From contig CALJAM010000036.1 of assembly GCA_938027685.1 (NCBI GenBank), positions 1 to 64,000 of the forward strand: a DNA stretch of 64,000 nucleotides. The letters run 5' to 3'. The DNA is from an uncultured Bryobacteraceae bacterium. GTDB lineage: Bacteria > Acidobacteriota > Terriglobia > Bryobacterales > Bryobacteraceae. Position numbers and translations under genes: made by a program. The notes beneath the pieces are model-generated. The model saw only the letters and a list, made by a program, of their open reading frames with translations, searched no databases and was not told where the DNA came from. This document shows positions 26,352-42,862 of this stretch, piece by piece; within the stretch, counting starts at the first letter, position 1, and each line of letters begins with the position of its first letter.

Positions 26352-26723
26352 GCTATTCAACTCTCCTTCCTGCACGCCTACGCCGTCGGAAGGCTCCGCG
26401 GCGGGTGGCTGAGACGACCAATGCCGTCGAGTCGCGATAGTCTCGGCCGTCACGGCGCCGGGCAATTCGCTTAACTCCTGTACCCTCAGGCGCGCCGACG
26501 ACCCGTCTGCGCAGCGCAGATGGCGAACGGGGGTTGGCATTTACGGTAATCGCGAGCCGGTGCAACGACACCATCGAGCAAGGGCTCGGTTCGGGCCCGC
26601 TGGCCCTGAGGTTCTTTCGCCCCCGGAAAGGTGGTGTATCTGGCCCGCGGCGCCGGCACAAGAGCATCTCGCATGCCTCTCGTCACTTGATCTCCGGATC
26701 GCCATCCACCTGAAGGCCGGTCG
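26352..26723. other. Intergenic spacer inside the leftward glycan operon
   Basis: About 370 bases between the GH140-like stop (26724) and the GH127 start (26351). The GH127 reading frame stays open up to 26540 without recognisable homology. No clear promoter, hairpin or small gene stands out. Confidence 0.4.
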
Positions 26724-28169
26724 TCAACGGCTCGGCGCCGGGCGGCCCGGGGGCGGGAAGGCGCGCGATTCGTCGTCGAGCACTAACACCAGGTCGGCGC
26801 CCAAGCCCCCCAGCAAGGGAGGGGCGAATTCACGTCTGCCCCGGTTGTCGAAGGTGCCAATGAGTTCCGCCTCGCCCGTGCGCGGGTTGTACCACCAGGC
26901 CCTGAGCCGCTCTCCGGAAATTTTGCCGAGGTTGGCTACGATGGGCCGTCCTTGCGGGCTGTAATAAAAAGCGTAACCCTCGCCTCTTGTGGCTACAACG
27001 TACTCGGCGCCCTCCCAATTTTCTGCGATCAGCGTTTGATCCGGCACCCGCGATAGAAAGGGGCGCGATTCCATCAAATTGCGAAGGTACTGCATCTGCG
27101 CGGCTCCCGGCCGGTGTAACGCCTGATGCCAGTGGAAAAGCGGTCCGTTAATCGGGCGCTTCCCGGGCATGGCCATTTGCCACACTGAGTGGTTGCCGTA
27201 GGTGTGGCCGAATCCTCCCGAGAAAACGGCCCAGTACGCTCGTTGGCGAACGTGCGCGTCGAAAGAATAACCATACTCGCGAGCGAGACGGAACCCGATC
27301 GGATGATCTTCGTACAGCGGTTCTCCGTCCATTACTGGTTTTACGGGAACGCGGTCGTAATCCGCCTTGATCCGAACCCAGCTTTGCACGCGCTCCGCCG
27401 GGCCGTGACCGGTCTGCTGCATGTTGAAATCCAGCCACGGTTCGTTGTGGAAATGCTCGGCCGAGCTGTGTCCGCCGTGAGGATGGAAAGTCATCAGCGC
27501 AGCCGAGTAGTCTTCCTTCCCGGCAATTCCCAGTACGATGCCGCGCGCCAACTCCCGCCAGATTTCCTCGACGCCCTCGGGAGACCGGTCTCCGCCCAAG
27601 ATCCAGATCACTGACTTGCCGGAGAAGCGGCGACCAAGAAACTGTCCGTATGCCAACGCGTTTTGAGGAGTGAAGATCTGGTCCGTGGGGTTACGCTCGT
27701 TGCGCACCCAACGACCCCAGGTAGGTAGCAGACCGATGTAAATGCCCCGCCGATTGGCTTCGTCAATGATGAATTCGACATGGTCCCAATAGTCGTACGC
27801 TGCTGGATCGTTAGGATCGTTCCCCGGGGTGACCGCGGGCCGCGCAGGATCCTTATCCTGGAGAGGGAGGTCGCCGTAAGGATTGGGGTCGCTAATGCCA
27901 TCCAGTTCGGCCAGCGCTACGGCCTGAATGACGTTGTAACCCTGGCGAGCACGCAACTCGAGATATTCAACGGCCTGGCTCCGATCCAGACGGTGGAAGA
28001 GCTCCCAGGCGGTATCGCCCAGGTAGAAGAAAGGCTTGCCGTTATCCTGAACCAGGAAACGGCCGTTCTCGCTGACCTTCAGCTTGGGCAGCGGCGGCGT
28101 CGCGGCTAACCCCGCCGATGGGATCAGCAGCAGGCCCACTAAGCTCAACTCGATCCGTCTCCTCATCAT
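26724..28169 (-). CDS. Apiosidase-like glycoside hydrolase (DUF4038, GH140-like)
   Basis: 481 aa, starting at one of two adjacent ATGs (28169/28166) behind GAGG. Signal peptide 1-22. The TIM barrel opens with FFYLGDTAWELFHRL, the DUF4038 hallmark. Asp194 (WILGGDRSPEG) and Glu283 (VMDGEPLYED) occupy the positions of the catalytic pair known in GH140 apiosidases. A C-terminal beta-domain (YAFYYSPQGRPI, WWYNPRTGEAELIG) matches the collagen-binding-like domain that follows these barrels. GH140 releases apiose from rhamnogalacturonan II side chains outside the cytoplasm. The divergent operon at 32660 encodes apiose-type oxidation, which strongly supports an apiosidase role. Confidence 0.85.
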   Translation of the reverse strand: MMRRRIELSLVGLLLIPSAGLAATPPLPKLKVSENGRFLVQDNGKPFFYLGDTAWELFHRLDRSQAVEYLELRARQGYNVIQAVALAELDGISDPNPYGDLPLQDKDPARPAVTPGNDPNDPAAYDYWDHVEFIIDEANRRGIYIGLLPTWGRWVRNERNPTDQIFTPQNALAYGQFLGRRFSGKSVIWILGGDRSPEGVEEIWRELARGIVLGIAGKEDYSAALMTFHPHGGHSSAEHFHNEPWLDFNMQQTGHGPAERVQSWVRIKADYDRVPVKPVMDGEPLYEDHPIGFRLAREYGYSFDAHVRQRAYWAVFSGGFGHTYGNHSVWQMAMPGKRPINGPLFHWHQALHRPGAAQMQYLRNLMESRPFLSRVPDQTLIAENWEGAEYVVATRGEGYAFYYSPQGRPIVANLGKISGERLRAWWYNPRTGEAELIGTFDNRGRREFAPPLLGGLGADLVLVLDDESRAFPPPGRPAPSR

Positions 28170-28315: not shown

Positions 28316-31300
28316 TCAGAAGTAAAAACCTAAGGACAGCTGCACCACCCTGGGTGACCGTGTCGCCGTGACCTGTCCGAATCGGGCATTCACCTGATTT
28401 CCGGCGGGGTCGAACCGGGCAGTATTGTCCACGGAAGCGTACTGCGTGTGGTTGAACGCGTTGTACATCTCGCAGCGTAACCGTAGGAAGCGTGACTCCC
28501 CGCGCACCGGTATGTTCTTCATCACGGTCAGATCCCAGTTGTTGATCCCAGGTCCCCGGAAGACGCTCGACGCTGCGTTACCGAACGTCCCCTTGGCCGG
28601 CCGTGCGAAGGCACGCGTGTTGAACCAGCGGTGGAAGCTGCGCTCGCCGCGTCGCAGTTGGGGCTTCTCCACGACCACTACCCGGGTGCCATCCCCGCCT
28701 CCGCTGATGTCGGCGCCGTCGGTGGTCGTCAGACCAATGCCGGCCGGTGTACCACTGGCGAAAGTAACGATTCCGGAAATTTGCCAATTATCGGCAATCT
28801 GGCGAAGAATACCTTTGGGCAACAGCCTGCCATAATTGGGCAGTTCCCAAAGATAGTTCACAACTAACATGTGGGTTTGGTCGAAACTCAGCGGTCCATA
28901 GTTCCACACGCGCCGGGAGATATAACGTGAAACACTCCCCGGTTCGCCGGCGGAGAGCCCCATCGCCTTCGACCAGGTGTAGGCCACTCCGAACTGGAAG
29001 CCCTCGACGAAACGGCGGTTCGCTGACACCTGCAAGGCGTTATAGTTGGATGTCCCGGAGGTTTCGTAGTACGTTATGCTGCCGTAGCCCGGGAAAGGTC
29101 GGAAGAAATCGTCTGGCAGGGGACGAGTGGGGTTCGTGGGATCGGCATTCTCAGGCTGGAACCGCGCACCGTAGGGTAGCGTGTTGAGGTTGACGGTCTG
29201 CAAGAGGTGGCGCCCCACGTTGGCGACGTACGCTGCTTCGAGGATGGTGCCCCAACCTAGGTGTTGTTGTAGGCCGAAACTCCAGTTATAGACGCTGGGG
29301 ACCACGTCGTCCCGCTGCCATGCGTTGACGGCAGACGGGAAGAGCACACCGGAGGCCTGGAGAAACGTGTCCAAGCTGCCATAGAAAATCCGGGGCTGGA
29401 ACAAAACCGGGGGATTGTTCGCTGCCGGATTGATAAAGTTTCCACTTCTTTCCAAAACCCTTTTGTTCACGCCGAACCCGCCTCGGATCGCGGTGCGGCC
29501 ATTGCCGACCAGATCGTAGGCGAAGCCCACGCGAGGCGCCACTTGCACAGGCTGCTGTCGGCGGAACCCTTCCGGGTAGCTACGGTCGGTGCCTAAGACC
29601 GTGCCATTCGCCGGATCGCCGGTGTCGGGCACAAACGCCCCAATGAATGCTGCCGGTCGGAATAGATTGGTCACGGGGTCCCAGGCGACCCTTCGGCCGG
29701 AAGGATCGAAGGCGGGTCGGTAGAAGCGCGGGACCCTGGACAAGTCATACCGATCCAACGCGAGGGCGGCTCCTACGCCCCGGCGGAGGCGGTACGGGGT
29801 GAACCAACTGAATCGGGCCCCGTAGGTAAGCGTGAACTTCCGGTTGACTTTCCAAACGTCCTGGGCGAACCATTCCACGAGGAGGGTCTTCCCTTCCGCG
29901 ATCACGCGATTGGTCGCCTCAGTGTAGGAGGCGAAATTTCCGAGCAGGGCATTTGCGAATGCCCAGTTCGCATCGAAGGGATTATTGAGGTCCCGGCCGA
30001 AATCGAAGCGCCCATTGAAACTCGGGGCGCGCCAGTCCTCGCTGGTCCAGTTGCGCTGGAGATAAAAACCGAACTTCGCGGTGTGGGGACCACGGATGAG
30101 GCTTAGATTGTTGGCCAACGTCAACACCTCGTCTCCGCAGTCGATCGGGGTTCGTGCGTCGATGGTGAAGCTCGGCGCGGACGGGACGCCGCCGAAGGTC
30201 ATCTCGGGAATGAAGCCATAGGGGTTAATGCGCGGAGTAAACTGGCCGAAGGTGATCCCATGGCGGGTTCTCGTCAAGTGATCGAACTCGCCTGCCCAGC
30301 CGCCCCGGTCCGGCGCACCTAACTCCTTCGCGCCCCAGAAGCCCGCGGTGAACTCGTTCACCAACGTAGGGGACAGAATCTTTGTCCACGTCGCGTTCGC
30401 CGCGTCATGGGTGTAGAGATAGTGATGGTAGACGAGAGGCACGCCGTAAAATCCGGCTAATGCCGTGTAGGCGCGCGTGTTCGCCCACCAGCGCTTTGGC
30501 CGCAAAGTGAGGGTGTCCTTATCGGTGGGTCGGTAGTCCAGTCTTAAGAGCTGGCCGCGCTTGGGCACGTCCTGAAAGTCCTGAAACTCGTAGTTGTAGG
30601 CGCCCAACGTTTGCGACCGATCCAACCGGTTGGGCATGGGGAAAATTCCCAGGAGCTTATGGCCTTCGGGGTGAAGACGGGGAGCGGGTATGACATTCCC
30701 TGGGAAAGGCGCGCCTGCCAGAGGATCCCGAATGACCACCAACCGATTATTTTGATCCAGGGTCTGAGAGAAGTCACCTCGGCGTTCCGCTTCCGTCGGG
30801 AGCGTGAAACGGAGCAAGCTTTGCGGCACCCTGGTCCGCCAGTCTTCGTGAGAAAAGAAGAAGAAAAGCTTGTCTCGGGATGTATTGAAGCGGCCTGGCA
30901 CGTAGACAGGACCGCCCAGGGTGAAACCGAAATTGGTTAAACGATAAAGCGGCCTCGGCTGGCCGGTGCGGTTGAGGAAGAAGTCATTGGCGTTAAGACT
31001 TTCGTGGCGCTTATACCAGTACGCGCTCCCATGAAACTCGCGGGTACCGGACTTGGTCACCACACTGATGGTGCCCCCAGGGTTGGGACCGTATTCCGGC
31101 AGATAGGCGTTAAGGACCACCTTGACCTCCGCCATCGCGTCCACGCTCGTAGCCGCAGAAAAGGCCCGGAGAATGTCCACGTCGTTCGCGGCCTGCCCGT
31201 CCAGCCGGATGTTGTTCCACTGGTCCCGCGTGCCGGAAATGTTAGGCACAAAGCTCCCATAGCGGCCGCCCAGAGAATCCGCACCACCCGTGACCTGCGA

Positions 31301-31795
31301 GACGCCGGGCAGGATGCGCAGCAGGTTTACGATGTCGCGTCCGCGGATCATGAGGTCGCGCAGCTGAGATTGTGAAAGCAAGGCGGTGTTATCCGCTGAT
31401 TCTGTTGCAAGACTCGGCCCCTGGGCTTCCACGGTAACGGTTTCGGTGATTTGCCCGACGGTCAATTCAATGGTTCCCAGGGCTAGGCGCTCATTGGCCG
31501 TCAGGATAAGCCCCCGACGCTCGTACGGCCGGAACCCGGGCGCCTCGATTCGTACGGTGTAACCGCCTGGGGGAAGAGCGACGAGAACGAAGCCGCCCGT
31601 GTTGCCGGTGATCGTGGATCGCGTCGCGCCGGTTTTTTCATCGGACACCACAACCTTGGCTCCCACAATCACCGCCCCCGTGTGGTCGACGACAACCCCG
31701 GTGAGCGACCCGGTCACGGTCTGAGCGGGCGCTCCTGCAACGAATGCGAGCCAAGCGAAAATGGCAAGCCGGACTGATCGGCAGGTTGTCGACAT
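28316..31795 (-). CDS. TonB-dependent receptor with carboxypeptidase-regulatory-like domain
   Basis: 1,159 aa from ATG 31795, with AGGAGG upstream; the longer open frame overlapping the GntR gene is not used. Signal peptide 1-25 (LAIFAWLAFVAGAPA). Regulatory-like sandwich about 26-110 (LTGVVVDHTGAVIVGA), then plug (SQLRDLMIRGRDIVNLLRIL, GGRYGSFVPNISGTRDQ), then a long barrel ending in aromatic LSLGFYF. Oar-like outer-membrane importer. A consensus promoter lies just upstream, and the genes for a GH140-like apiosidase and a GH127 enzyme follow on the same strand. It is therefore a good candidate for uptake of apiose- or arabinose-bearing oligosaccharides. Confidence 0.93.
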   Translation of the reverse strand: MSTTCRSVRLAIFAWLAFVAGAPAQTVTGSLTGVVVDHTGAVIVGAKVVVSDEKTGATRSTITGNTGGFVLVALPPGGYTVRIEAPGFRPYERRGLILTANERLALGTIELTVGQITETVTVEAQGPSLATESADNTALLSQSQLRDLMIRGRDIVNLLRILPGVSQVTGGADSLGGRYGSFVPNISGTRDQWNNIRLDGQAANDVDILRAFSAATSVDAMAEVKVVLNAYLPEYGPNPGGTISVVTKSGTREFHGSAYWYKRHESLNANDFFLNRTGQPRPLYRLTNFGFTLGGPVYVPGRFNTSRDKLFFFFSHEDWRTRVPQSLLRFTLPTEAERRGDFSQTLDQNNRLVVIRDPLAGAPFPGNVIPAPRLHPEGHKLLGIFPMPNRLDRSQTLGAYNYEFQDFQDVPKRGQLLRLDYRPTDKDTLTLRPKRWWANTRAYTALAGFYGVPLVYHHYLYTHDAANATWTKILSPTLVNEFTAGFWGAKELGAPDRGGWAGEFDHLTRTRHGITFGQFTPRINPYGFIPEMTFGGVPSAPSFTIDARTPIDCGDEVLTLANNLSLIRGPHTAKFGFYLQRNWTSEDWRAPSFNGRFDFGRDLNNPFDANWAFANALLGNFASYTEATNRVIAEGKTLLVEWFAQDVWKVNRKFTLTYGARFSWFTPYRLRRGVGAALALDRYDLSRVPRFYRPAFDPSGRRVAWDPVTNLFRPAAFIGAFVPDTGDPANGTVLGTDRSYPEGFRRQQPVQVAPRVGFAYDLVGNGRTAIRGGFGVNKRVLERSGNFINPAANNPPVLFQPRIFYGSLDTFLQASGVLFPSAVNAWQRDDVVPSVYNWSFGLQQHLGWGTILEAAYVANVGRHLLQTVNLNTLPYGARFQPENADPTNPTRPLPDDFFRPFPGYGSITYYETSGTSNYNALQVSANRRFVEGFQFGVAYTWSKAMGLSAGEPGSVSRYISRRVWNYGPLSFDQTHMLVVNYLWELPNYGRLLPKGILRQIADNWQISGIVTFASGTPAGIGLTTTDGADISGGGDGTRVVVVEKPQLRRGERSFHRWFNTRAFARPAKGTFGNAASSVFRGPGINNWDLTVMKNIPVRGESRFLRLRCEMYNAFNHTQYASVDNTARFDPAGNQVNARFGQVTATRSPRVVQLSLGFYF

Positions 31796-31851: not shown

Positions 31852-32613
31852 CTATTCGGCAGGGGCCCGCCGCGCCGTTTCGGCCAGCGCGAGACGATAG
31901 CGTGGATGAGCCCGCGTCAGGTGCCGTTTCATGGCTCGTTCCGCCGCGTCGGGGTCCTTCTTCTCGATGGCCCTCAAGATGGCTGCGTGCTCTCTCAGGG
32001 TCAGATCCTCGACGTTGGGCGCCCGCAGCAGACGAGGGAAAAAGCCGAAGATCCAACTAAGCATGGCCTGGCTCAGGGCGGGGTAAATGGGGTTGCCCGA
32101 GAGGCCGGCCAGAGTGACGTGGAAGCCCATGTCGGCGCGCACGAAGCGCGCCGGATCGCCCCGGGCTGCCTCTTGAGCGGCAAGGGCGTCGCGCAGTTTT
32201 TCGATATCGTCTCGATGGGCGCGCTTGGCCGCCTCGCGCGCCAAAAACTGCTCGAAGGCCAGGCGGGCCTGGGCGAGGCTCTCCCGCATTTCGGGCGAAG
32301 AGGTCAGCAATTGCCTCGCAGCCGCATCCATTCGACGGAGAACGTGATTTGGATCCAAGCGTACGACCTGGGCCCGCTCCCCGTGCCGAATCTCAATAAG
32401 GCCCATTTTCTCCAGAGATTGGAGGGCCTCACGCACTGCCGGACGACCGACCCCGAAACGGGCCATCAGTGCCCGTTCGCCCGGCAAGCGGCTGCCGGGA
32501 GGCGCCTGCCCACTCTCGATCATGGCCAGCAGGCGGTCGAGCACCTGGTCGGCCAGCTTTCGGCGCACAACCTTTTCGCCGTTCTCCGCAGTCCATTCCA
32601 TCTCTCCGATCAT
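31852..32613 (-). CDS. GntR family regulator, FadR/NanR-like
   Basis: 253 aa. Winged helix-turn-helix at about residues 17-85 (LADQVLDRLLAMIESGQ, GSRLPGERALMARFGVGRPAVREAL). The FCD ligand domain has FHVTLAGLSGNPIYPAL and EHAAILRAIEKKDPDAAERAM, resembling the sialate regulator NanR more than lactate or fatty-acid regulators. An ATG four codons in (32601) is an alternative start. It is divergent from the apiose-type operon at 32660, and a FadR-like site (32637-32647) lies between them. It probably represses that operon and may release it on binding a sugar acid such as apionate, which is inference. Confidence 0.87.
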   Translation of the reverse strand: MIGEMEWTAENGEKVVRRKLADQVLDRLLAMIESGQAPPGSRLPGERALMARFGVGRPAVREALQSLEKMGLIEIRHGERAQVVRLDPNHVLRRMDAAARQLLTSSPEMRESLAQARLAFEQFLAREAAKRAHRDDIEKLRDALAAQEAARGDPARFVRADMGFHVTLAGLSGNPIYPALSQAMLSWIFGFFPRLLRAPNVEDLTLREHAAILRAIEKKDPDAAERAMKRHLTRAHPRYRLALAETARRAPAE

Positions 32614-32621
32614 AAAACAGC

Positions 32622-32654
32622 TTGACAGGGAGCGTCTGGTCTGATCATTATAAC
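32622..32654 (+). promoter_or_regulatory. Promoter and FadR-like operator of the apiose-type operon
   Basis: TTGACA (32622-32627) is followed by an AT-rich -10 region, CATTAT (32646-32651) at 18 bases spacing or TATAAC (32649-32654). Between them is TGGTCTGATCA (32637-32647), an inverted repeat differing by one base from the FadR half-site form TGGTCnGACCA. The start codon at 32660 is so close that transcription would begin at or next to the ATG, giving a nearly leaderless mRNA. No ribosome site is seen. Confidence 0.55.
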
Positions 32655-32659
32655 ATCGT

Positions 32660-33688
32660 ATGCGAGAGCTGACCTTCGCCCTTTTCGGCGCCGGGTTCTG
32701 GGCGCAGTATCAGCTGGCCGGCTGGCGGGAACTTCCCGGGGTCCGTTGCGTGGCCATCTACAACCGGACCCGCTCCAAGGCTGAGGATCTCGCCCGCCGC
32801 TTTGGCATCCCAGCCGTCTACGACGATGCCGAGAAGCTCCTTGATGAGCAGGCCCTAGATTTCATCGACATCTGCACGGCCGTGGAGACACACGCGGATT
32901 TTGTGCTCCTGGCCGCTCGCCGGCGGCTGCCGGTCATTTGCCAGAAGCCCATGGCGCGTTCCTACCAGGAGGCTCAGCAGATGGTAGAGGCCTGCCGGCA
33001 AGCGGGCGTTCCCTTTCTGATCAACGAGAACTGGCGATGGCAGGCGCCGATTCGCGCGCTCGGACAAGTCGTGCAAGCCGGCACCATCGGCAAGGTCTTT
33101 CGGGCGCGCATCACCATGGTGTCCGGCTTTCCCGTTTTCCGCAATCAGCCTTTTCTGCGCGATCTGGAGCAGTTTGTGCTGACCGATATCGGCTCGCACT
33201 TGCTCGATACGGCGCGCTTTCTCTTTGGCGAAGCGGAAATCCTCTATTGCCAAACCCACCGGGTGCATGACGACATCCGCGGTGAGGACGTGGCTACCGT
33301 AATGCTGAAGACCGTGGATGACGCCACCGTGACGGTGGAGATGGGCTACGCCGAAAATTTCCTGGAGCGGGATCGGTTTCCCGAAACCTTCATCTTCGTC
33401 GAGGGGCGGCAAGGATCGGCGGAATTAGCACCGGACTACTGGATTCGGGTGACCACGGCGAGCGGCACGCACGCCTATCGCGTGGTCCCGCCGCGCTACA
33501 GTTGGGCGGATCCGGCTTACGAAGTGGTTCACTCCTCGATCGTGCCTTGTCAGGCCAACCTGCTGGCGGCGTTGCGCGGCGAGGCGGTCGCGGAAACGAC
33601 CGGCGAAGATAACCTGCGCACGATGCACCTGGTTTTTGCCGCCTACGAATCAGCCGCGCGCGGCCAGGCCGTCCGCTGTTCGGAATAA
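32660..33688 (+). CDS. apsD: Gfo/Idh/MocA dehydrogenase, probable D-apiose dehydrogenase
   Basis: 342 aa, cytoplasmic. Rossmann motif ALFGAGFWAQYQLAGW (residues 7-22), cofactor segment IYNRTRSKAEDLARRFGIP, Lys96 in VICQKPMARS, NENWRWQAP, then Asp176 and His180 in TDIGSHLLDTARFLFGE. The GFW..YQLAGW start and QKPMA motif are as I recall for ApsD, the Gfo/Idh enzyme that oxidises D-apiose to apionolactone. The downstream gene, 2 bases on, looks like D-apionate lactonase, the next step. No ribosome site precedes the ATG, which may be leaderless. Without the neighbours only a generic oxidoreductase call would be safe. Confidence 0.78.
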   Translation: MRELTFALFGAGFWAQYQLAGWRELPGVRCVAIYNRTRSKAEDLARRFGIPAVYDDAEKLLDEQALDFIDICTAVETHADFVLLAARRRLPVICQKPMARSYQEAQQMVEACRQAGVPFLINENWRWQAPIRALGQVVQAGTIGKVFRARITMVSGFPVFRNQPFLRDLEQFVLTDIGSHLLDTARFLFGEAEILYCQTHRVHDDIRGEDVATVMLKTVDDATVTVEMGYAENFLERDRFPETFIFVEGRQGSAELAPDYWIRVTTASGTHAYRVVPPRYSWADPAYEVVHSSIVPCQANLLAALRGEAVAETTGEDNLRTMHLVFAAYESAARGQAVRCSE

Positions 33689-33690
33689 GC

Positions 33691-35343
33691 ATGACACCGC
33701 TGCGTGCAGGACCGTTGACGCTCCTTTTCGATCAGGGCGATCTGCGAAGGGTGTGCCTCGGGGGGCTCGAAGTAGCTCGCCGCATCTACTTCGCCTTGCG
33801 CGATCACAATTGGGTGACAATACCCGGAAAACTCGAGAACCTGAGGTTGCGCCGGGACGAGAAATCATTTGATATCCGATACCTCTGCGTTCACTCGTCC
33901 GGCGATATCGAGTTCCGCTGGGAAGCACGCATCCGCGGCGATCGCCGCGGCACGGTCCGCTTCGAAGCGGCCGGGCGGGCCTATTCGGATTTTTTGCGGA
34001 ACCGAATCGGGTTGTGCGTCCATCATCCGTTGCGCGAGTGCGCGGGCCTCACGGTGCGCATCAACGGGCGACACGGCGAGTTCCCGCGGCTCGTTTCGCC
34101 TCATCAGCCCCTTGCCGGCTTTCAGCGTCTGTCGTACAACTTACTCCCCGGATTGGAGGTCGAGTTCCTCTTCGAGGGCGAGATCTTCGAAACCGAGGAC
34201 CAACGTAACTGGGGCGATGCGAGTTACAAGACGTATGGCACGCCGCTTCACCTCCCGTTCCCTGTCCGTGTGCGGGCCGGCACAGAAGTCCGCCAGGCGG
34301 TGACCCTGACGCTGAAGGGACGTGTGCCCGATGCCCTACCGCAGCCCTCCGAATCGCGCCTCACCGCGCCCCAGCTTTGGCGCCCGTTGCCCCCGATCGG
34401 TTTCGGCTATTCGGGCGGGCGGCTGCCGGTGGATCTGAGGCCTGATCACGTACGCGTCGACCTGAGCTTCGGGGAAGAGCCGCCCCGCCTGGAGACGCCC
34501 TTGGAGTTGGCTTTGCACCTCGAGCCCGGCCGGGAAATCGAGCAGCTGCGTTCCCTGATGACGCGGAGCTGTCCCCTGGCTCGTCTGCTTGTCTTCCACC
34601 GCAACGAAAAGGTTACCGCGATGCGGTGGATCGAGGAGGCGCGCAAGCTTTTTCCGCAAGTGCCTGTCGTCGGCGGCACCAACATGTGGTTCGCAGAGTT
34701 GAACCGGGAGCGCCCGCCTTTGCCCGCGCCGCCGGTCGCTTTTGCGCTGTCACCTCAGGTACACGCCAGCGATGAGTTCTCGATGGTCGAAAATCTGGAA
34801 GCCTTTCCGCAGATGTTGGAGACCGCTCGGTTCTTCCTGCACGGCGCGCCGGTGCATGTAACTCCTATTACTTTGAAACCGCGCTTCAATCCGGTCGCGA
34901 CGGATCCTAATGCGGCTTTCGATAACATCGATCCCCGGCAGTCGACGCCGTTCGCTGCCGCCTGGACTCTGGGCGCCCTCGCCGCGCTGTTGGAAGGCAG
35001 TCCGGCCTCGCTCACCTTCTACGAATGCTACGGGCCGAGAGGGTTGGAGGATGCGACCGGGCCTTATCCGGTTTATCGGCTCTTTGAGGCCTTGAGTGGC
35101 TACAAGCAGGGTGAGTTCGCTCGCGCCGGCGTGCAAGGCGCTTTGTGGTTACGTCGAGACCGCCGGCAAGCGTTATTTCTCGCCAACCTGAGTCCCGAAG
35201 CAGCGGAGCTCGAGGTTCCGACTTGGCTGGGCGAACGGGGTCAGGTGCGCCTCTTGGGCCAGGCGGCACCACGCCTGGGCGCCTCGACGCGTTACAAGGT
35301 GCCGGGATGGGCTGTTCTGGTTTGCGAGTGGGAGCTGAGATGA
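33691..35343 (+). CDS. apnL: Probable D-apionate lactonase
   Basis: 550 aa, no signal peptide, starting 2 bases after the dehydrogenase stop. The N-terminal beta-sandwich contains RRIYFALRDHNWVTIPG (about residues 30-46) and a motif I associate with ApnL: ETEDQRNWGDASYKTYGTPL (167-186). A middle barrel-like domain follows (VVGGTNMWFAELNRERP, VHVTPITLKPRFNP), then a small beta-rich C-terminal domain (ALFLANLSPEAAELEVP). ApnL hydrolyses D-apionolactone to D-apionate in the apiose pathway. Placement between an ApsD-like dehydrogenase and, further on, an ApnO-like oxidoisomerase agrees. The stop overlaps the transporter start (ATGATG at 35340). Confidence 0.8.
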   Translation: MTPLRAGPLTLLFDQGDLRRVCLGGLEVARRIYFALRDHNWVTIPGKLENLRLRRDEKSFDIRYLCVHSSGDIEFRWEARIRGDRRGTVRFEAAGRAYSDFLRNRIGLCVHHPLRECAGLTVRINGRHGEFPRLVSPHQPLAGFQRLSYNLLPGLEVEFLFEGEIFETEDQRNWGDASYKTYGTPLHLPFPVRVRAGTEVRQAVTLTLKGRVPDALPQPSESRLTAPQLWRPLPPIGFGYSGGRLPVDLRPDHVRVDLSFGEEPPRLETPLELALHLEPGREIEQLRSLMTRSCPLARLLVFHRNEKVTAMRWIEEARKLFPQVPVVGGTNMWFAELNRERPPLPAPPVAFALSPQVHASDEFSMVENLEAFPQMLETARFFLHGAPVHVTPITLKPRFNPVATDPNAAFDNIDPRQSTPFAAAWTLGALAALLEGSPASLTFYECYGPRGLEDATGPYPVYRLFEALSGYKQGEFARAGVQGALWLRRDRRQALFLANLSPEAAELEVPTWLGERGQVRLLGQAAPRLGASTRYKVPGWAVLVCEWELR

Positions 35344-36368
35344 TGGAAGGGGCGGTTGCGGGTGTTGCGGCTGTTTTGCTTGGAGGCGCGCTGAACGGTA
35401 GTTTCGTGGCGCCTTTAAAGAAAATCCGGGAATGGCGGTGGGAGCACGCCTGGTTCGTCTACTCCGTTTCCGGTCTGATTTTGGTTCCCTGGTTATGGGC
35501 CCTCCTGACTTTGCCCTCGGTAGCGGAGGCCATCGCGGCGAGTCCACCGGCAGCCGCGATACAGGTCCTGCTCTTCGGCTTTGGGTGGGGCATCGGGAGC
35601 GTGTTGTTCGGGTTGGGAGTCGACCGGATGGGCTTGGCCCTGGGTTACGGCCTCATTCTGGGCTTGATCGCCCCCATCGGTACTCTTCTACCCTTGTTGG
35701 TGCTCTACCCCGAAAAGTTGTTCACTCGCCAGGGAGTCCATTTACTCGCGGGAACCGCGATCGTGCTGGGCGGTATCGGTGCTCTGACTGCCGCCGGGCG
35801 ATTGCGCGAACGCATGCGGCCGGAATGGGCGACACGCGCGGCGTTACCTGCCAAATCCTTCCTCGCGGGCGTGCTGATCTGTGTGCTTTCCGGGATCTTT
35901 TCGCCCATGCTGAACTTTGCTTTCGTTTTCGGCGAACCTTTGCGGGAAGCTGCGCTTGCGAAGGGGGCGTCCGCGAGGAGCGCGGCGAACGCGCTATGGG
36001 CTCTCACGCTTACCGCAGGCTTCGTGCCGAACGCGGGTTACGCCGGATACCTCATGCTGAGGAATCGCTCGCTAGGGTTGTGGCGGCGGGAGCCGGGGAT
36101 CAACCTATTGTGGGCTTCGCTGATGGGTGTGCTCTGTTACGGAAGCTTCATGGTATACGGATTTGGCGCGAGCGGACTCGGTCGACTGGGCGGCATCGTG
36201 GGCTGGCCGCTCTTCATGTCCATGAGCCTGATTACCTCGAACACACTCGGCTGGATCACGGGAGAATGGAAGGAAGCGCCGACAAGGGCGGCGCGACTCT
36301 CTTTGCTGGGCGTGGGAGCCTTGATCGCGGCCATCGTCATCATTGCCTTGGGACGGGAGGCAGGGTGA
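35340..36368 (+). CDS. RhaT-like sugar:proton symporter (DMT superfamily)
   Basis: 342 aa, close to the 344 aa of L-rhamnose transporter RhaT, with about ten hydrophobic helices. The start ATG overlaps the lactonase stop. Family features: N-terminal GGALNGSFVAPLKKIREWRWEHAWF, GFGWGIGSVLFGLGVDRMGLALGYGLILGL, and a late LGWITGEWKEAP. RhaT-family carriers bring deoxy- or neutral sugars across the inner membrane with a proton. In this operon the expected cargo is apiose, whereas described apiose systems were found with ABC transporters. If correct, this is a different import route. Rhamnose, another rhamnogalacturonan sugar, is the alternative. Confidence 0.83.
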   Translation: MMEGAVAGVAAVLLGGALNGSFVAPLKKIREWRWEHAWFVYSVSGLILVPWLWALLTLPSVAEAIAASPPAAAIQVLLFGFGWGIGSVLFGLGVDRMGLALGYGLILGLIAPIGTLLPLLVLYPEKLFTRQGVHLLAGTAIVLGGIGALTAAGRLRERMRPEWATRAALPAKSFLAGVLICVLSGIFSPMLNFAFVFGEPLREAALAKGASARSAANALWALTLTAGFVPNAGYAGYLMLRNRSLGLWRREPGINLLWASLMGVLCYGSFMVYGFGASGLGRLGGIVGWPLFMSMSLITSNTLGWITGEWKEAPTRAARLSLLGVGALIAAIVIIALGREAG

Positions 36369-37147
36369 AGCTCGGCATCGGGTCGTACACCTTCACTTGG
36401 GCCATTGGCATTCCAGGCGCAGAGCCAGAACGCCCTATGACGGCCCGCGACCTCATTGCCAGAGCCGCGGAGCTGAACGTTCGATTGGTTCAATTCGGCC
36501 CTAACCTGAAATTCGATCTCGAGGATTGTCGGGCAGCCCGCGGGGCCGGTTTGGAAGTCGAGATTGGAGCAACCTCGCTGGATTTGGCTGAATGGGTCCC
36601 GTTCGCGCGGGCAGCCGGGGCGAAGCTGCTCCGCACAGTCCTACAAGAAGAACCCGTGGACGTGCCTCCGCCCGGCTGGATCGAACGTCGCTTACGTGCG
36701 TTGATCCCCCTGCTCGAGGAGCACGGAATCCGCTTGGCCCTGGAGAACTCTATCGTGCCTGCCGCCCAATTGCGCGCCGTCTTGGAGAGCATCGCTCACC
36801 CTGCCCTCGGGATCACACTGGACACCGCCAACTCGCTGGTCATTGGTGAAGACTGGCGGCACGTCCTGCGCGAGCTGGCGGCTTTCACTTATTGCTTGCA
36901 CCTCAAGGACTACCGCATCCGCCGTGAGTGGCACCGACTGGGATTCCGGGTCGAAGGCGCTCCTGCCGGTCAGGGGCAGCTCGACATTCCTCAAATACTT
37001 GGCGCGTTGAAGCAGGCCGGTGCGCGGTGCAACGCCATCCTCGAACTCTGGCCGCCCCAGCAGGCCACGCTGGACGAAACCATTGCACTCGAAGACCAGT
37101 GGGCCCGGGAAAGCATCCGTTATCTCCGAAGACTGATAGAGGAGTAA
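36365..37147 (+). CDS. Xylose-isomerase-like TIM barrel protein, candidate 3-oxo-isoapionate decarboxylase
   Basis: 260 aa from GTG 36365, overlapping the transporter stop as GTGA. AP-endonuclease-2/xylose-isomerase-like barrel: IGSYTFTWAIG at the start, RLVQFGPNLKFD, metal-type Glu in RLALENSI (about residue 126), Asp and His in GITLDTANSL and YCLHLKDYRI, and Glu in AILELWPPQ. The family includes sugar isomerases, epimerases and, as I recall, OiaC, which decarboxylates 3-oxo-isoapionate to L-erythrulose. It lies five bases before an ApnO-like gene whose product would be that substrate. Fold is confident; the OiaC role rests on context and is moderate. Confidence 0.75.
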   Translation: MKLGIGSYTFTWAIGIPGAEPERPMTARDLIARAAELNVRLVQFGPNLKFDLEDCRAARGAGLEVEIGATSLDLAEWVPFARAAGAKLLRTVLQEEPVDVPPPGWIERRLRALIPLLEEHGIRLALENSIVPAAQLRAVLESIAHPALGITLDTANSLVIGEDWRHVLRELAAFTYCLHLKDYRIRREWHRLGFRVEGAPAGQGQLDIPQILGALKQAGARCNAILELWPPQQATLDETIALEDQWARESIRYLRRLIEE

Positions 37148-37152
37148 CACCG

Positions 37153-38037
37153 ATGTCCGAATCCGTTGCCATTCTAGGCGCAGGCGGTAAGATGGGCCTT
37201 CGCGCAGTGGAGAAACTCGCGAAAGGCCCTTGGCGGCTACTCTTGTGCGAAAGCGACGAGCAGAAGGCCGCCACGCTGCGCGCGCAGGGTCATGAAATAA
37301 GGTCGCTCCAGGAGGCCGCCCGCGAGGCCGATTACCTGTTCATGGCTGTTCCCGACGCCGTGATCGGCAAAGTCGCCGGCGAGGTGCTTCCCGTCATGAA
37401 ACCAGATTCCTGCCTCATCATGCTCGATGCTGCGGCGGCCTACCTGGGCGCCGTGCCCGAGCGCCCGGAGGTCACTCGCATGATCGTGCATCCGTGCCAT
37501 CCGCCGTTCTTCACTGAGCAGGCCACGCCGGAAGCGCGCCGCGACTATTTCGGCGGCGTAGCTTGGCAGGATCTGGTCACCGCTTTGATCGGGGGAGAGC
37601 CCTCCCGCTTCGAGGACGGCATCGCCCTCTGTCAGCAGGTCTTCGCGCCGGTCCGGGAGGTTCACCGGGTGACGCCGGAGCAGTTTGCGTTCCTCGAGCC
37701 GGCTATGGCCGAAATCATCGTCGCCGCGGCGGCCAGCTGGATGAAGGAGTCTCTGGAAGAAGCCGTGCGGCGCGGGGTTCCGCGTGCCGCGGCCGAAGCC
37801 TTCATGGCCGGGCACGCTCAAATCGCCCTGGCTATCGTTTTTGGGGCGGAGAAGTCGCCCTTTTCCGATGCCGCTCAGCGGGCCATCGCCTGGGGCACCC
37901 GACATTACATCAACCCTGAATGGCGGCAGATCTTTTCGCCTGCCGTGCTGCGAAGGGCGATCGCGGAGATTCTCGAGGTCGAAGGGACCGCCACTTTATC
38001 GGAAGGCGGCGCGTTATCCGCGGTCGCCGAAAGTTAG
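37153..38037 (+). CDS. apnO: Probable D-apionate oxidoisomerase
   Basis: 294 aa from ATG 37153, preceded by GAGGAG. Rossmann domain with AILGAGGKMGLRAVEKL (residues 6-22), VPDAVIGKVAGEVLP, then HPCHPPFF (about residue 115) and EARRDYFGGVAWQD. A helical phosphogluconate-dehydrogenase-like C-terminal domain follows (TPEQFAFLEPAMAEIIVAAA, FMAGHAQIALAIVFG, SPFSDAAQ). This combination matches ApnO, which converts D-apionate to 3-oxo-isoapionate with hydroxymethyl migration. Together with the ApsD- and ApnL-like genes it gives the ordered steps apiose, apionolactone, apionate, 3-oxo-isoapionate. It is the last gene of the operon. Confidence 0.82.
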   Translation: MSESVAILGAGGKMGLRAVEKLAKGPWRLLLCESDEQKAATLRAQGHEIRSLQEAAREADYLFMAVPDAVIGKVAGEVLPVMKPDSCLIMLDAAAAYLGAVPERPEVTRMIVHPCHPPFFTEQATPEARRDYFGGVAWQDLVTALIGGEPSRFEDGIALCQQVFAPVREVHRVTPEQFAFLEPAMAEIIVAAAASWMKESLEEAVRRGVPRAAAEAFMAGHAQIALAIVFGAEKSPFSDAAQRAIAWGTRHYINPEWRQIFSPAVLRRAIAEILEVEGTATLSEGGALSAVAES

Positions 38038-38737: not shown

Positions 38738-41700
38738 TCAGAAGCTGTAGCGAAGGGCGAGCTGGATGTGGCGCTCGCTGCTCTTGCTGGTAACCTTGCC
38801 GAAGGTAGCGCTGCGCGGGTTAGCATCCGCGCCGCCCCAGTTGGGGTGATTGGGGAAGTTGAAGAACTCGGCACGGAACTGCAGCCGGTGCGTCTCCTTC
38901 AGGGCAAAGTCCTTGAAGACGGCGAGGTTCCAGTTCTGGAACCCAGGATGATTGAGCAGGTTACGCGTCTGGGTCTTGGAGAAAGTGCCCTGGGCGGGCG
39001 GCACGAACAAGGGCGAGCCGTCGGGCAGTTTCGTGCGGAACCAGAAGTTCTGATCCGCTGCGCCCAAGGAGAACTTGCGCTGGCTGCGCGGCAGCTTCCA
39101 ATCACCCAGCATGTCCCAGGCCTGACCTTCACCCACGGCGCCGATGCCGGCGAAGTCATCGGAGGTGGCCACGGTGAAGGGGGCTCCGGTTTGGAACTGG
39201 GCCACGCCCGTAATCTGCCATCCGCCTAAGGTTTTCTCCAGGATGTCGTTGCGCCCGCGAAGCAGGGGCAACTGATAGATGAAGTTCACGACCGCGATGT
39301 GGCGCGTGTCGAAGCTCGAGGGTCCCCAGAAGTTGCGATCGTCCCACGGGTTGTTGATCCGGTCGCGCCGGCCGGAAGCGTTGTCCATGCTCTTAGAGTA
39401 GGTGTAGGACAACCCGTAGCTGAGACCGCGCGTGAACCGCCGGTTGACCTCGAGCTGCAGCCCATTGTACTCGCTCCGGGCAGCGTTCTCGCCCAGTGCG
39501 ATGATCGCGAAGCCCTTGTAAGGCCGCAGCACATTGGTGTTGACGCCGCGGTTTTCAGGTTTGAACAACGTGCCGAGCGGGAGGGCATTGAGGTTACGCT
39601 CGCGTTCCATGTGCAGGCCCACGCGTCCCACATAGGCCACCGACACCAGCGTGTCGAAACCGACCTCGCGTTCGTAGGTGACGTTCCAGGTGTACGAGCC
39701 CGGGATCTTGAAAACGGGGTCGGTGGTCATGAAGAACAGCGGGAAGTACGAGGGTCTGCCGCCCGCCGGGTTGTCAGCCTGCCCGTTGGCGATAGAGACC
39801 ATGGGCTGCAAGGGCGGGTTGCCGCCGAGGAAGATGTTGTCGCTGACTCCGGGCCTTGCGAGGAAGCGACCGAAGCCGGCCCGCAAGGCGTCACGGTTGG
39901 TGATGGAGTAAGCGATGCCGATGCGTGGCTGGAAATTCAGCCACTGCCGCTTGCCCCAGTAATTGGGACCGCCGGAGAAGAGGCGGTCAAAGCTTCGATC
40001 ATCAGCCAGAGCCACGCGCCCCTGAGCGGCCTTGGGCCAGCCCTTGCCCGGGATCACGATCCCGTTATAGCGATCGCCGCTGAGGATGTAACCGGTAGCC
40101 CGATCCTGCACCACGGCCTTGGCCGGATCGTAGCGGTTGGGATCGAAGACGGCGATGTTACCCCAAAGGCTGAAATAATAAGGCGTCATGTAAGTGTGGC
40201 GGACGCCCAGCTCCAGACGGAACTTGGGGGTAACCTTCCAGGAATCCTGGGCGAACCACTCGAACATGTTGGCCCGATACGGCGTAAAGGCGCGCTGTCC
40301 GATTTCAGCGTAGGTATCGAACAGGCCCATGGCGGCGTTGGCGATGGCCAACCGCGTGGTGGGCGCCCCGGCGCGGCTGTCGGTGAAAACGAAACGTCCG
40401 TTCTGATTGTTGGTGCCGCCGGGCACACCCGTAACATTGATCTGGTCGAAGTCGTTCTGGCCGCTGCGCTCGTAAGAAACGCCCCACTTGAAGGTATGGT
40501 TGCCGTAAATCTTGGTCATGTTGTTGGAGAAGACGTAAATGGGGCCGGAGGAGAAGGCGGGGTAAGGACCGCCGTCCACGGTGGCGAAATTCGCGATGTC
40601 AATGGTCGGGATCTTGTCGTAGATTTCCTTGCGTTCAGGGAAGATGTACGGATAGTCGATGCCGTACTTCGACCGCGCGTAGCGCTCACCCGGCCGATAA
40701 ACGCCGATGTAGACTCGGTCCACGCTCGCGGTGACGAGCAGCTCGTTCACCATAGTCGGCGAAATCGTCCAGATGTAGTTGAGCGACGCAGTCTTGTTGG
40801 GCCGGTTCCAGTCGGTGATGGCGCGATCGGTGCCGCCGCGAAAAGCGTCGATGGCAGTGTAGCTGTAGTTCTGGTGCCGCAGCCGGAACGTGTGGCTGGG
40901 GCTGGGAATGAAGTCAACCGAAAGGGTGTCTTTGCGCTGATTCTGGGGATTGGGACGGGTCTGGATGAAGTTGTTACGGCCCTGCAAGAAGCCCGGCGTT
41001 GGCTCCGGGTAGGCGCGGAGGAAGCCCAGACCGTTTCGGCTCAGGCGGCTAGCCGGGATGATGTTGTTGGGAAACGGGACGTTGGTATCGGGGTCATAGA
41101 CGATACGGGCCGTGCCGAAGAAGGAGTTGGGGCCGAGCAGCTCCGAGAAGTCGCCGCGACGCATGGCGAGCGAGGGCACGGTGATGATCGAGGTGGATTC
41201 CTGCCGGAACCTTACCCACTCCTGGCTCCAGAGAAAGAACAGCTTGTTGCGGTCGGTATTCCAAGTGTTGGGAATGAACACGGGACCGCTGAAGATGTAA
41301 CCGAACTGGTTGAACTTATGGGCGGGTCGGGGCGAGCCGGCGCGATTGAGCGCCCAGGTGTTGGCGTTCAGTTCGCGGTTGCGGAAGTACTCGTAGAGGC
41401 TGCCGTGGAAATCGCGCGTGCCGCTCTTGGTGACCAGCCGGATCTGACCCGCGGCGGAGCGGCCGTACTCGGCGTTGTAGTTGGCGGTGAGGATCTGCAT
41501 CTCCTGAACGGTGTCTACGTCAGCCACGCCGATCGAGGTCCCGTTGGCCCGGGTGCGCACGGCGACCGCGCCGTCGAAGTTCATGACGAAGTCCTGCGTA
41601 CGGCCGCCGTTAATGCTCAGGCCCGCAGTGGTGAGGCCGAAGCTGAAGCTGGCCAGAGAGGAGCCGCTGCGTACGCCGGCCTTGAGCAGGGCCAGCCAGA

Positions 41701-42169
41701 TGGGGTTGCGCCCGTTCAGCATCATGTTCTGAATCTGGGTGCTCTCGACGAGCCGCCCCACGGTCGCCGTGTCGGACTGTACGGCCACGACGGACGCCGT
41801 GACCTCGACAGTCTCCGTGACGGCGCCGACTTCGAGCGTGACGTCCACAGTTCGGGGCAGGTTAGGCTCCAGCCGGTTCTGGGTGCGAATGAACTTCTTG
41901 AAGCCAGTGGCTTCCACGGTCACCGTGTAAGACCCCGGTGGGAGGTTGGAGACGACGTAGTAGCCGGTTTCGTTGGTCTGCGTCTTGCGCTCCAGCCCGG
42001 TTGCTTCGTTGGTGACGGTGACGCTGGCGTTTGGTACGACCGAGCCCGTCGGGTCCTTGACGAAGCCGGAGATCTGAGCGGTGTCGGACTGGGCGAGCAG
42101 CAGGCCGCAAAATAGAACGGAGAGGGCCATGCACACGCTTGCAAACCCTCGTTTACGCTCGTTTCGCAT
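38738..42169 (-). CDS. TonB-dependent receptor with carboxypeptidase-regulatory-like domain
   Basis: 1,143 aa from ATG 42169, with AGGAGG about 11 bases upstream. Signal peptide 1-27 (VCMALSVLFCGLLLAQ). Sandwich domain with ISGFVKDPTGSVVPNASV (about 33-50) and GYYVVSNLPPGSYTV. Plug with MLNGRNPIWLALLKAGV and LSINGGRTQDFVMNFDG. Barrel strands run to a terminal Phe (LALRYSF). Intact Oar-like outer-membrane receptor standing alone: no glycosidase or transporter follows on its strand, and a terminator-like palindrome closes it. It is the fourth such receptor in 64 kb. The ligand is unknown. Confidence 0.93.
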   Translation of the reverse strand: MRNERKRGFASVCMALSVLFCGLLLAQSDTAQISGFVKDPTGSVVPNASVTVTNEATGLERKTQTNETGYYVVSNLPPGSYTVTVEATGFKKFIRTQNRLEPNLPRTVDVTLEVGAVTETVEVTASVVAVQSDTATVGRLVESTQIQNMMLNGRNPIWLALLKAGVRSGSSLASFSFGLTTAGLSINGGRTQDFVMNFDGAVAVRTRANGTSIGVADVDTVQEMQILTANYNAEYGRSAAGQIRLVTKSGTRDFHGSLYEYFRNRELNANTWALNRAGSPRPAHKFNQFGYIFSGPVFIPNTWNTDRNKLFFLWSQEWVRFRQESTSIITVPSLAMRRGDFSELLGPNSFFGTARIVYDPDTNVPFPNNIIPASRLSRNGLGFLRAYPEPTPGFLQGRNNFIQTRPNPQNQRKDTLSVDFIPSPSHTFRLRHQNYSYTAIDAFRGGTDRAITDWNRPNKTASLNYIWTISPTMVNELLVTASVDRVYIGVYRPGERYARSKYGIDYPYIFPERKEIYDKIPTIDIANFATVDGGPYPAFSSGPIYVFSNNMTKIYGNHTFKWGVSYERSGQNDFDQINVTGVPGGTNNQNGRFVFTDSRAGAPTTRLAIANAAMGLFDTYAEIGQRAFTPYRANMFEWFAQDSWKVTPKFRLELGVRHTYMTPYYFSLWGNIAVFDPNRYDPAKAVVQDRATGYILSGDRYNGIVIPGKGWPKAAQGRVALADDRSFDRLFSGGPNYWGKRQWLNFQPRIGIAYSITNRDALRAGFGRFLARPGVSDNIFLGGNPPLQPMVSIANGQADNPAGGRPSYFPLFFMTTDPVFKIPGSYTWNVTYEREVGFDTLVSVAYVGRVGLHMERERNLNALPLGTLFKPENRGVNTNVLRPYKGFAIIALGENAARSEYNGLQLEVNRRFTRGLSYGLSYTYSKSMDNASGRRDRINNPWDDRNFWGPSSFDTRHIAVVNFIYQLPLLRGRNDILEKTLGGWQITGVAQFQTGAPFTVATSDDFAGIGAVGEGQAWDMLGDWKLPRSQRKFSLGAADQNFWFRTKLPDGSPLFVPPAQGTFSKTQTRNLLNHPGFQNWNLAVFKDFALKETHRLQFRAEFFNFPNHPNWGGADANPRSATFGKVTSKSSERHIQLALRYSF

Positions 42170-42285
42170 CCTGACGCTTTCCTCCTGAAGCTGAATCCGC
42201 ATGATCCGGCCCACCAACCCGGGAGCCGGAGGGCGCCCCAGCCAATTCTTACCGAGGCCGACCCTGCCTTCAGGATGGCCCATTC

Positions 42286-42321
42286 CGGGTGCGGCCGTCA
42301 AGTCAGGCGCGGGCGTCAAGT
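42286..42321 (-). repeat. Tandem 18-bp direct repeat upstream of the TonB receptor gene
   Basis: In minus-strand sense two copies of ACTTGACGsCCGCrCCyG lie head to tail (15 of 18 positions identical), about 115-150 bases before the receptor start. Each copy contains a TTGACG -35-like hexamer. They could be paired activator sites or alternative -35 elements. No good -10 hexamer is seen at the proper distance. Confidence 0.45.
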
Positions 42322-42415
42322 TCGGTTGCACCCGCACCCTGGTAAAATTGCGGGGAGGTCGCCGCGGCTTGGCAAGCGGCGCACCATGAGTGGCTGAAGC
42401 AAGGGGGAACCAGGA

Positions 42416-42862
42416 ATGTTCAAGAGAGTGACGCAAACGTCCGTGGTGACGTTGTTGCTCAGCTTGTCGCTGGCGTGGGCGGGCGAAAAGAAGCTCATGC
42501 ATTGCTTCGTCTTCACTCCCGTCGAGTCCGCCACGCAAGCGGAGTGGCAGGCGTTCTTCAAAGCGACCGATGAGCTGCCCAAGCAGATTCCCGGCCTGCA
42601 TCGAGTCTGGTACGGAAAGCTGCTCAAGCCGCTGGCCATTTTCACGACCGATGCCGAGACCCGTAAGAAACTGGCCGCCGGCGAAAAGCAAGCGACAGGG
42701 CCGGTCCAGCGCCTAATGCGGGAGTGGGGCGTGTGCATGGAGTTCGAAGACGAGGCGGCCCTGAAGGTTTACGCCGATCACCCGGCGCATCGGGAGTGGG
42801 AGAAGGTCTACTTCAAGGTGCGGCAGCCCGGCACAACGACCTTCGACATCGTCGGGCAGTAA
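42416..42862 (+). CDS. Secreted Dabb (stress-responsive A/B barrel) domain protein
   Basis: 148 aa. Signal peptide 1-23 (TSVVTLLLSLSLAWAG). The mature part is a single ferredoxin-like Dabb domain: LMHCFVFTPVESATQAEWQAFFK (start), LPKQIPGLHRVWYGK, CMEFEDEAALKVYADHPAHREWEKVYFK (the conserved YxxHPxH region), then a short tail. Dabb proteins form small dimeric alpha/beta barrels of varied or unknown function. An exported form is common in Acidobacteriota and Planctomycetota. A ribosome site (GGGGGAACCAGG) precedes the start. It is convergent with the ApbC gene, and no functional link to its neighbours is evident. Confidence 0.82.
   Translation: MFKRVTQTSVVTLLLSLSLAWAGEKKLMHCFVFTPVESATQAEWQAFFKATDELPKQIPGLHRVWYGKLLKPLAIFTTDAETRKKLAAGEKQATGPVQRLMREWGVCMEFEDEAALKVYADHPAHREWEKVYFKVRQPGTTTFDIVGQ

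Follow-up and report, generated by a model that had tools for sequence, protein, structure and literature searches.

The window, a stretch of 64,000 nucleotides from an uncultured Bryobacteraceae bacterium (contig CALJAM010000036.1), contains a five-gene operon on the forward strand. In operon order, the genes encode an ApsD-like Gfo/Idh/MocA dehydrogenase, an ApnL-like lactonase, a carrier of the RhaT family, an OiaC-like TIM barrel, and an ApnO-like dehydrogenase. These abbreviations are those of the apiose pathway, in which OiaC is a direct decarboxylase. The carrier gene (35340–36368, + strand) is confirmed as a genuine gene. Its frame is uninterrupted over 342 codons, and the product matches PF06379 over residues 5–338 with 110 bits against a Pfam gathering cut-off of 27. 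Its ATG overlaps the stop codon of the lactonase gene by four bases, and an overlap of the same length joins its TGA to the GTG of the barrel gene; the remaining spacers within the operon measure 2 and 5 bases. The preliminary description of this DNA, which had placed a 342-residue RhaT-family carrier between a lactonase-like and a barrel gene, is thus confirmed. From the Pfam match, these overlaps, and a 12-member clade described below, the protein is predicted to be an inner-membrane importer of apiose.

The NCBIfam models nearest to the carrier all bear the name L-rhamnose symporter. The best of these equivalogs, NF010022, is matched with 273 against a cut-off of 369 and hence below it, whereas RhaT of Escherichia coli clears NF010021 with 763. 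This test is weak on its own, since the RhaT of locus L211, which is linked to RhaA, also stays under the cut-off (353 versus 468). A sequence search of the PDB with the carrier returned no relative, and a structure model, built from an alignment with one other sequence, reached a pLDDT of 45 and was discarded.

The dehydrogenase at the head of the operon (32660–33688, +) carries the domains PF01408 and PF22725 and shares 37 to 66% identity with its homologues at other ApnL loci across phyla. Its predicted structure has a pLDDT of 94.5. The nearest solved structure is the Agrobacterium radiobacter oxidoreductase 5uhw (Z 48.8, 39% identity; runner-up Z 38.4), which we take to be ApsD itself, an entry from the apiose project. 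The protein is therefore likely a D-apiose dehydrogenase. The lactonase (33691–35343, +; 550 residues) matches NF049900, the model of D-apionate lactonase ApnL, in two stretches with 246 bits (cut-off 750). Compared with the ApnL homologues of other Acidobacteria (32–43% identity), it is homologous over most of its length but shortened in the middle region. Because of the low score and the shortened middle, it is regarded as a divergent homologue; in the ApnL search, no acidobacterial match lay above the model cut-off. The xylose-isomerase–like barrel (36365–37147, +; GTG start; PF01261) is 39 to 45% identical to the barrels of other ApnL/ApnO loci and matches no specific curated model in NCBIfam. 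Its position in the operon makes it a candidate 3-oxo-isoapionate decarboxylase; this assignment and that of the likely ApsD draw on position, fold, and background literature. The last gene (37153–38037, +) encodes a dehydrogenase of the PGDH_C family (PF16896, 157 bits), for which a solved relative exists (5t57, 216.9 bits) and no specific NCBIfam model was matched. Taken together, the gene set fits the oxidative D-apiose route, which leads from apiose dehydrogenase via apionolactonase and apionate oxidoisomerase to decarboxylation. The names and EC numbers of the first three steps are given for Rhodobacteraceae strain LCG007, which grows on D-apiose (PMC11747546). Its cluster encodes these three enzymes, for which the window has candidate genes, but continues with a kinase and a phosphate decarboxylase, and the available part of that source mentions no RhaT (PMC11747546).

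Four annotated genes diverge from the operon on the reverse strand. The first (31852–32613) encodes a NanR-like GntR/FCD regulator, which scores 286.5 bits with NF003011, above the cut-off of 260; related regulators adjoin five other operons of the RhaT clade. It is followed by an outer-membrane protein of the TonB-dependent receptor type (28316–31795; PF25183, 596 bits; PF13620), whose probable start, the ATG at 31795, is preceded by TTGACA-17-TATAAT as read directly from the sequence. Farther on lie an apiosidase-like glycosidase with a signal-like N-terminal sequence (26724–28169; PF13204, 375 bits) and a GH127-family glycosidase (24393–26540; PF07944, 311 bits). The latter stays below the cut-off of the aceric acid hydrolase model NF049879 (386 versus 950 bits). 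A homologue of the apiosidase-like protein, 64% identical, closes the operon in genome G421. The 46-base divergent promoter harbors an operator-like inverted repeat, TGGTCTGATCATTATAACA (32637–32655, +). It imperfectly matches the TGGTAT-N7-ATAYCA repeats that precede the operons of G423, G421, and G364, each of which also has a related GntR gene in divergent orientation. With at most one mismatch, the site at 32637–32655 is the sole match of this type of pattern in the genome, the pattern itself being partly derived from this site. On the other side, directly past the operon, the reverse strand holds a long TonB-receptor–like ORF (38738–42691). Neither the five operon genes nor the four annotated divergent genes include an ABC binding protein, ATPase, or permease, and the two BPD_transp_2 genes of the genome lie on other contigs.

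To what extent this arrangement recurs was surveyed in 257 genomes of the order, with the RhaT of the window as query. Eleven relatives are 56 to 71% identical to it, and all others at most 50%. An ApsD-like gene is part of the RhaT operon in 11 members of the resulting 12-member clade, being either directly adjacent or separated only by ApnL. For the 12th member (G407), the contig starts just before RhaT, and an OiaC-like barrel is adjacent; such a barrel is also present in 10 of the 11 operons containing ApsD. ApnL lies inside the cluster in eight cases (the window, G414, G364, G441, G435, G440, G398, and G462), and the cluster of G435 combines ApnL, ApsD, and RhaT with a convergent ApnO. 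As operons of this kind contain the RhaT gene in 11 further genomes of the order, chance is excluded as the source of this association. In G423, G421, and G408 (loci L169, L171, and L177), no ApnL is found between ApsD and RhaT; it is located on another contig. All 12 clade genomes contain ApnL homologues, as compared with 57 of the 257 overall (hypergeometric P 5e-9), and all 12 contain ApnO homologues, as compared with 49 of 257 (P 7e-10), both values being naive in that they ignore kinship. Since many ApnO homologues of up to 42% identity are solitary, they were counted as apiose loci only together with neighbors. The genus g214 illustrates the co-occurrence: G440 and G441 carry the apiose-type RhaT along with ApnL and ApnO homologues, and for G437, G438, and G439 none of the three is among the matches listed, only a RhaT of 48 to 50% identity.

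In many genomes of the order (L220–L228), ApnL homologues also occur at sites where neither ApsD, ApnO, OiaC, nor RhaT could be detected in the vicinity. On this ground, an ApnL homologue taken by itself was rejected as a sign that apiose is used. Since so many homologues have no pathway gene detected around them, the ApnL family probably extends beyond apionate lactonase, and the name alone is no proof of apiose.

At comparable loci elsewhere, the position of the carrier is held by other transporters. Among Acidobacteria, a ribose-type ABC system lies beside ApnL in L015 and L018, and a maltose-type ABC system at the ApnL locus L014. L015 and L016 both contain ApsD, ApnL, the barrel, and ApnO; L018 contains ApnL, ApnO, and an apiosidase. 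Gene order and gene sizes matching those of L015 suggest that L016 has ribose-type ABC genes as well. On a plasmid of Paraburkholderia sprentiae, genes for a RuBisCO-like protein, a D-ribose–type ABC transporter, a Gfo/Idh/MocA protein, and an ApnL homologue stand in a row. These loci thus share with the window ApnL-like and ApsD-like and/or ApnO-like genes together with a sugar transporter, but their transporter is a multisubunit ABC system with a binding protein. In a cross-phylum set of 22 loci, each combining ApnL with two or more of ApsD, ApnO, and OiaC, ABC sugar-transport genes occur in 11, a RhaT in one (L046, which judging by the scores is the same locus as that of G435), and a ureide-permease/GRP-like carrier in one (L048); the remaining loci show no nameable carrier within the stretch covered. 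Since homologous loci hold an ABC transporter at this position, RhaT can be said to replace it here, which bears out the earlier suggestion of a carrier in place of an ABC system. Ureide-permease/GRP-like carriers, which belong to another branch of the drug/metabolite superfamily, have ApsD- and ApnL-like genes in their vicinity in one metagenome-assembled genome (MAG) of the Bacteroidetes (L048, 2820–3833) and in an acidobacterial one (L082, 5640–6632). Whether carriers of this superfamily have replaced the ABC importer of apiose operons more than once, namely in the RhaT clade of the window's acidobacterial family and again in L048 and L082, appears to us evenly poised. In this family of soil Acidobacteria, the carrier occupies the place within an apiose operon that an ABC importer has in other bacteria, and it therefore most likely imports apiose.

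The strongest alternative follows from the family name. RhaT of E. coli (b3907) is an L-rhamnose/proton symporter, and like the carrier it is a single-subunit membrane protein of PF06379 with nearly the same length (344 versus 342 residues). The protein of the window might hence be a rhamnose or broad-range importer that stands in the operon by chance, for example, because rhamnose, too, is released from pectin bearing apiose (RG-II) and the two sugars come in at the same time; the PF13204 and GH127 glycosidase homologues nearby could act on RG-II. The phylogeny argues otherwise. In a tree of 58 rows, the 12 apiose-operon RhaTs form one clade with a support of 100/100; a branch of equal support separates it from E. 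coli RhaT, three acidobacterial proteins closely related to the latter, and the RhaA-linked RhaTs. Five RhaTs that are about 30% identical to that of the window adjoin RhaA; the tree covers two of these, the remaining three lying outside its rows, and some long branches outside the apiose-operon clade are uncertain. With the rhamnose-linked carriers, E. coli RhaT among them, on the far side of that 100/100 branch, the placement argument holds, and the phylogenetic check proposed at the outset puts the carrier outside the rhamnose-transporting clade. E. coli RhaT also differs by adjoining rhamnose genes and consistently at positions 19, 23, 112, 266, and 269. One E. coli-like relative (L212) is flanked by a rhamnose mutarotase gene and a gene for a bifunctional aldolase/dehydrogenase. 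Around the 12 operons, no RhaA was found, and searches with E. coli RhaA, RhaB, RhaD, and RhaM revealed no rhamnose gene except a RhaM-like match in G414, near its second RhaT. Moreover, G423 possesses the apiose-operon RhaT and, separately, a RhaA-linked one.

The second RhaT of G414 (L170, G414:C57, 5023–6042) is about 40% identical to that of the window, lies beside the apiose operon on the opposite strand, and adjoins an ORF that weakly matches L-rhamnose mutarotase. The window's own genome likewise encodes another RhaT (L023, 7992–9002; G000:C1:186991–188001), which is 43% identical and adjoins a GH2 glycosidase. With clades whose neighbors are GH2 (L195 in G378; L023), DUF4838/GH67N-like (L199), or gluconolactonase and SDR genes (L206), the RhaT family is diverse in the acidobacterial lineage. 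RhaA was not found in the window's own genome. The view, derived from this absence, that the organism makes no use of rhamnose was overturned by an L-rhamnose isomerase of the RhaI type on contig C3 (L274, 10161–11288; G000:C3:11160–12287; approximately 511 bits, cut-off 531). No carrier was found near this isomerase, which lies on another contig than the window. This lends the rhamnose importer some support, and because of it, dual use with additional import of rhamnose may apply. Overall, we consider a rhamnose or broad-range importer present by chance unlikely.

Import of apiose by the RhaT-type carrier is, by our assessment, the probable role at this apiose-using locus, even though the ApnL score far under the curated cut-off and the three sister operons without ApnL between ApsD and RhaT count against an apiose reading. 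The TonB-type outer-membrane receptor and the apiosidase-family enzyme would provide free D-apiose in the periplasm. The carrier would then move it into the cytoplasm, presumably with the proton gradient as its driving force, like E. coli RhaT; substrate, transport direction, and coupling ion are herein what we infer from the genes. Once inside, apiose could be oxidized and decarboxylated by the ApsD-like enzyme, the ApnL-like lactonase, the ApnO-like oxidoisomerase, and the OiaC-like barrel. A compound related to apiose, that is, apionate, apionolactone, or a small apioside, might be moved instead, as the lactonase and ApnO genes would also serve an imported lactone or acid, and ApnL is coupled directly to RhaT in the window. 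Against this speaks that the most constant partner is the ApsD-like dehydrogenase, which would use free apiose (11 of 11 operons with a long enough contig), that ApnL is missing from three sister operons, and that, to our knowledge, the known substrates of the RhaT family are neutral sugars; we hold a related compound to be quite improbable. That the operon serves a different branched or rare sugar, its labels being borrowed from distant homologues, as the 246 bits of ApnL and the barrel lacking a curated model might suggest, is equally improbable given the apiosidase-family genes in the window and adjoining the sister operons of G421 and G462, the ApsD-, ApnO-, and OiaC-like genes accompanying ApnL across phyla, and the joint occurrence of Gfo/Idh/MocA, ApnL, ABC, and RuBisCO-like genes on the Paraburkholderia plasmid.

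For the RhaT family, we know only of rhamnose transport having been worked out, to which annotation adds lyxose, E. coli RhaT being annotated as a rhamnose/lyxose symporter. RhaT has been described as belonging to the drug/metabolite transporter superfamily (PMC3870299). At the agarose locus of Bacteroides uniformis (NP1_25), a RhaT homologue has been put forward, without proof, as an importer of 3,6-anhydro-L-galactose (PMC5849685). As in the window, a nonrhamnose sugar was proposed there from the locus, but the substrate is a different one; the comparison made here is one of family, locus, and substrate. Varied RhaT substrates are hence not a new idea, and the preliminary claim of a new substrate for the family stands in part: nonrhamnose substrates had already been proposed (PMC5849685) or, with lyxose, annotated, and for the apiose clade no earlier report was found, none of the papers searched containing both apiose and RhaT. 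The agarose-locus proposal makes the general idea less novel, but not this clade.

The conserved apiose context of the clade points to a testable new specificity for the RhaT family. The residues at which the clade consistently differs from the rhamnose carriers offer a starting point for finding the determinants of specificity. If the proposed role is true, it would fill the import step for the use of apiose in those Acidobacteria that have no ABC system at the locus.
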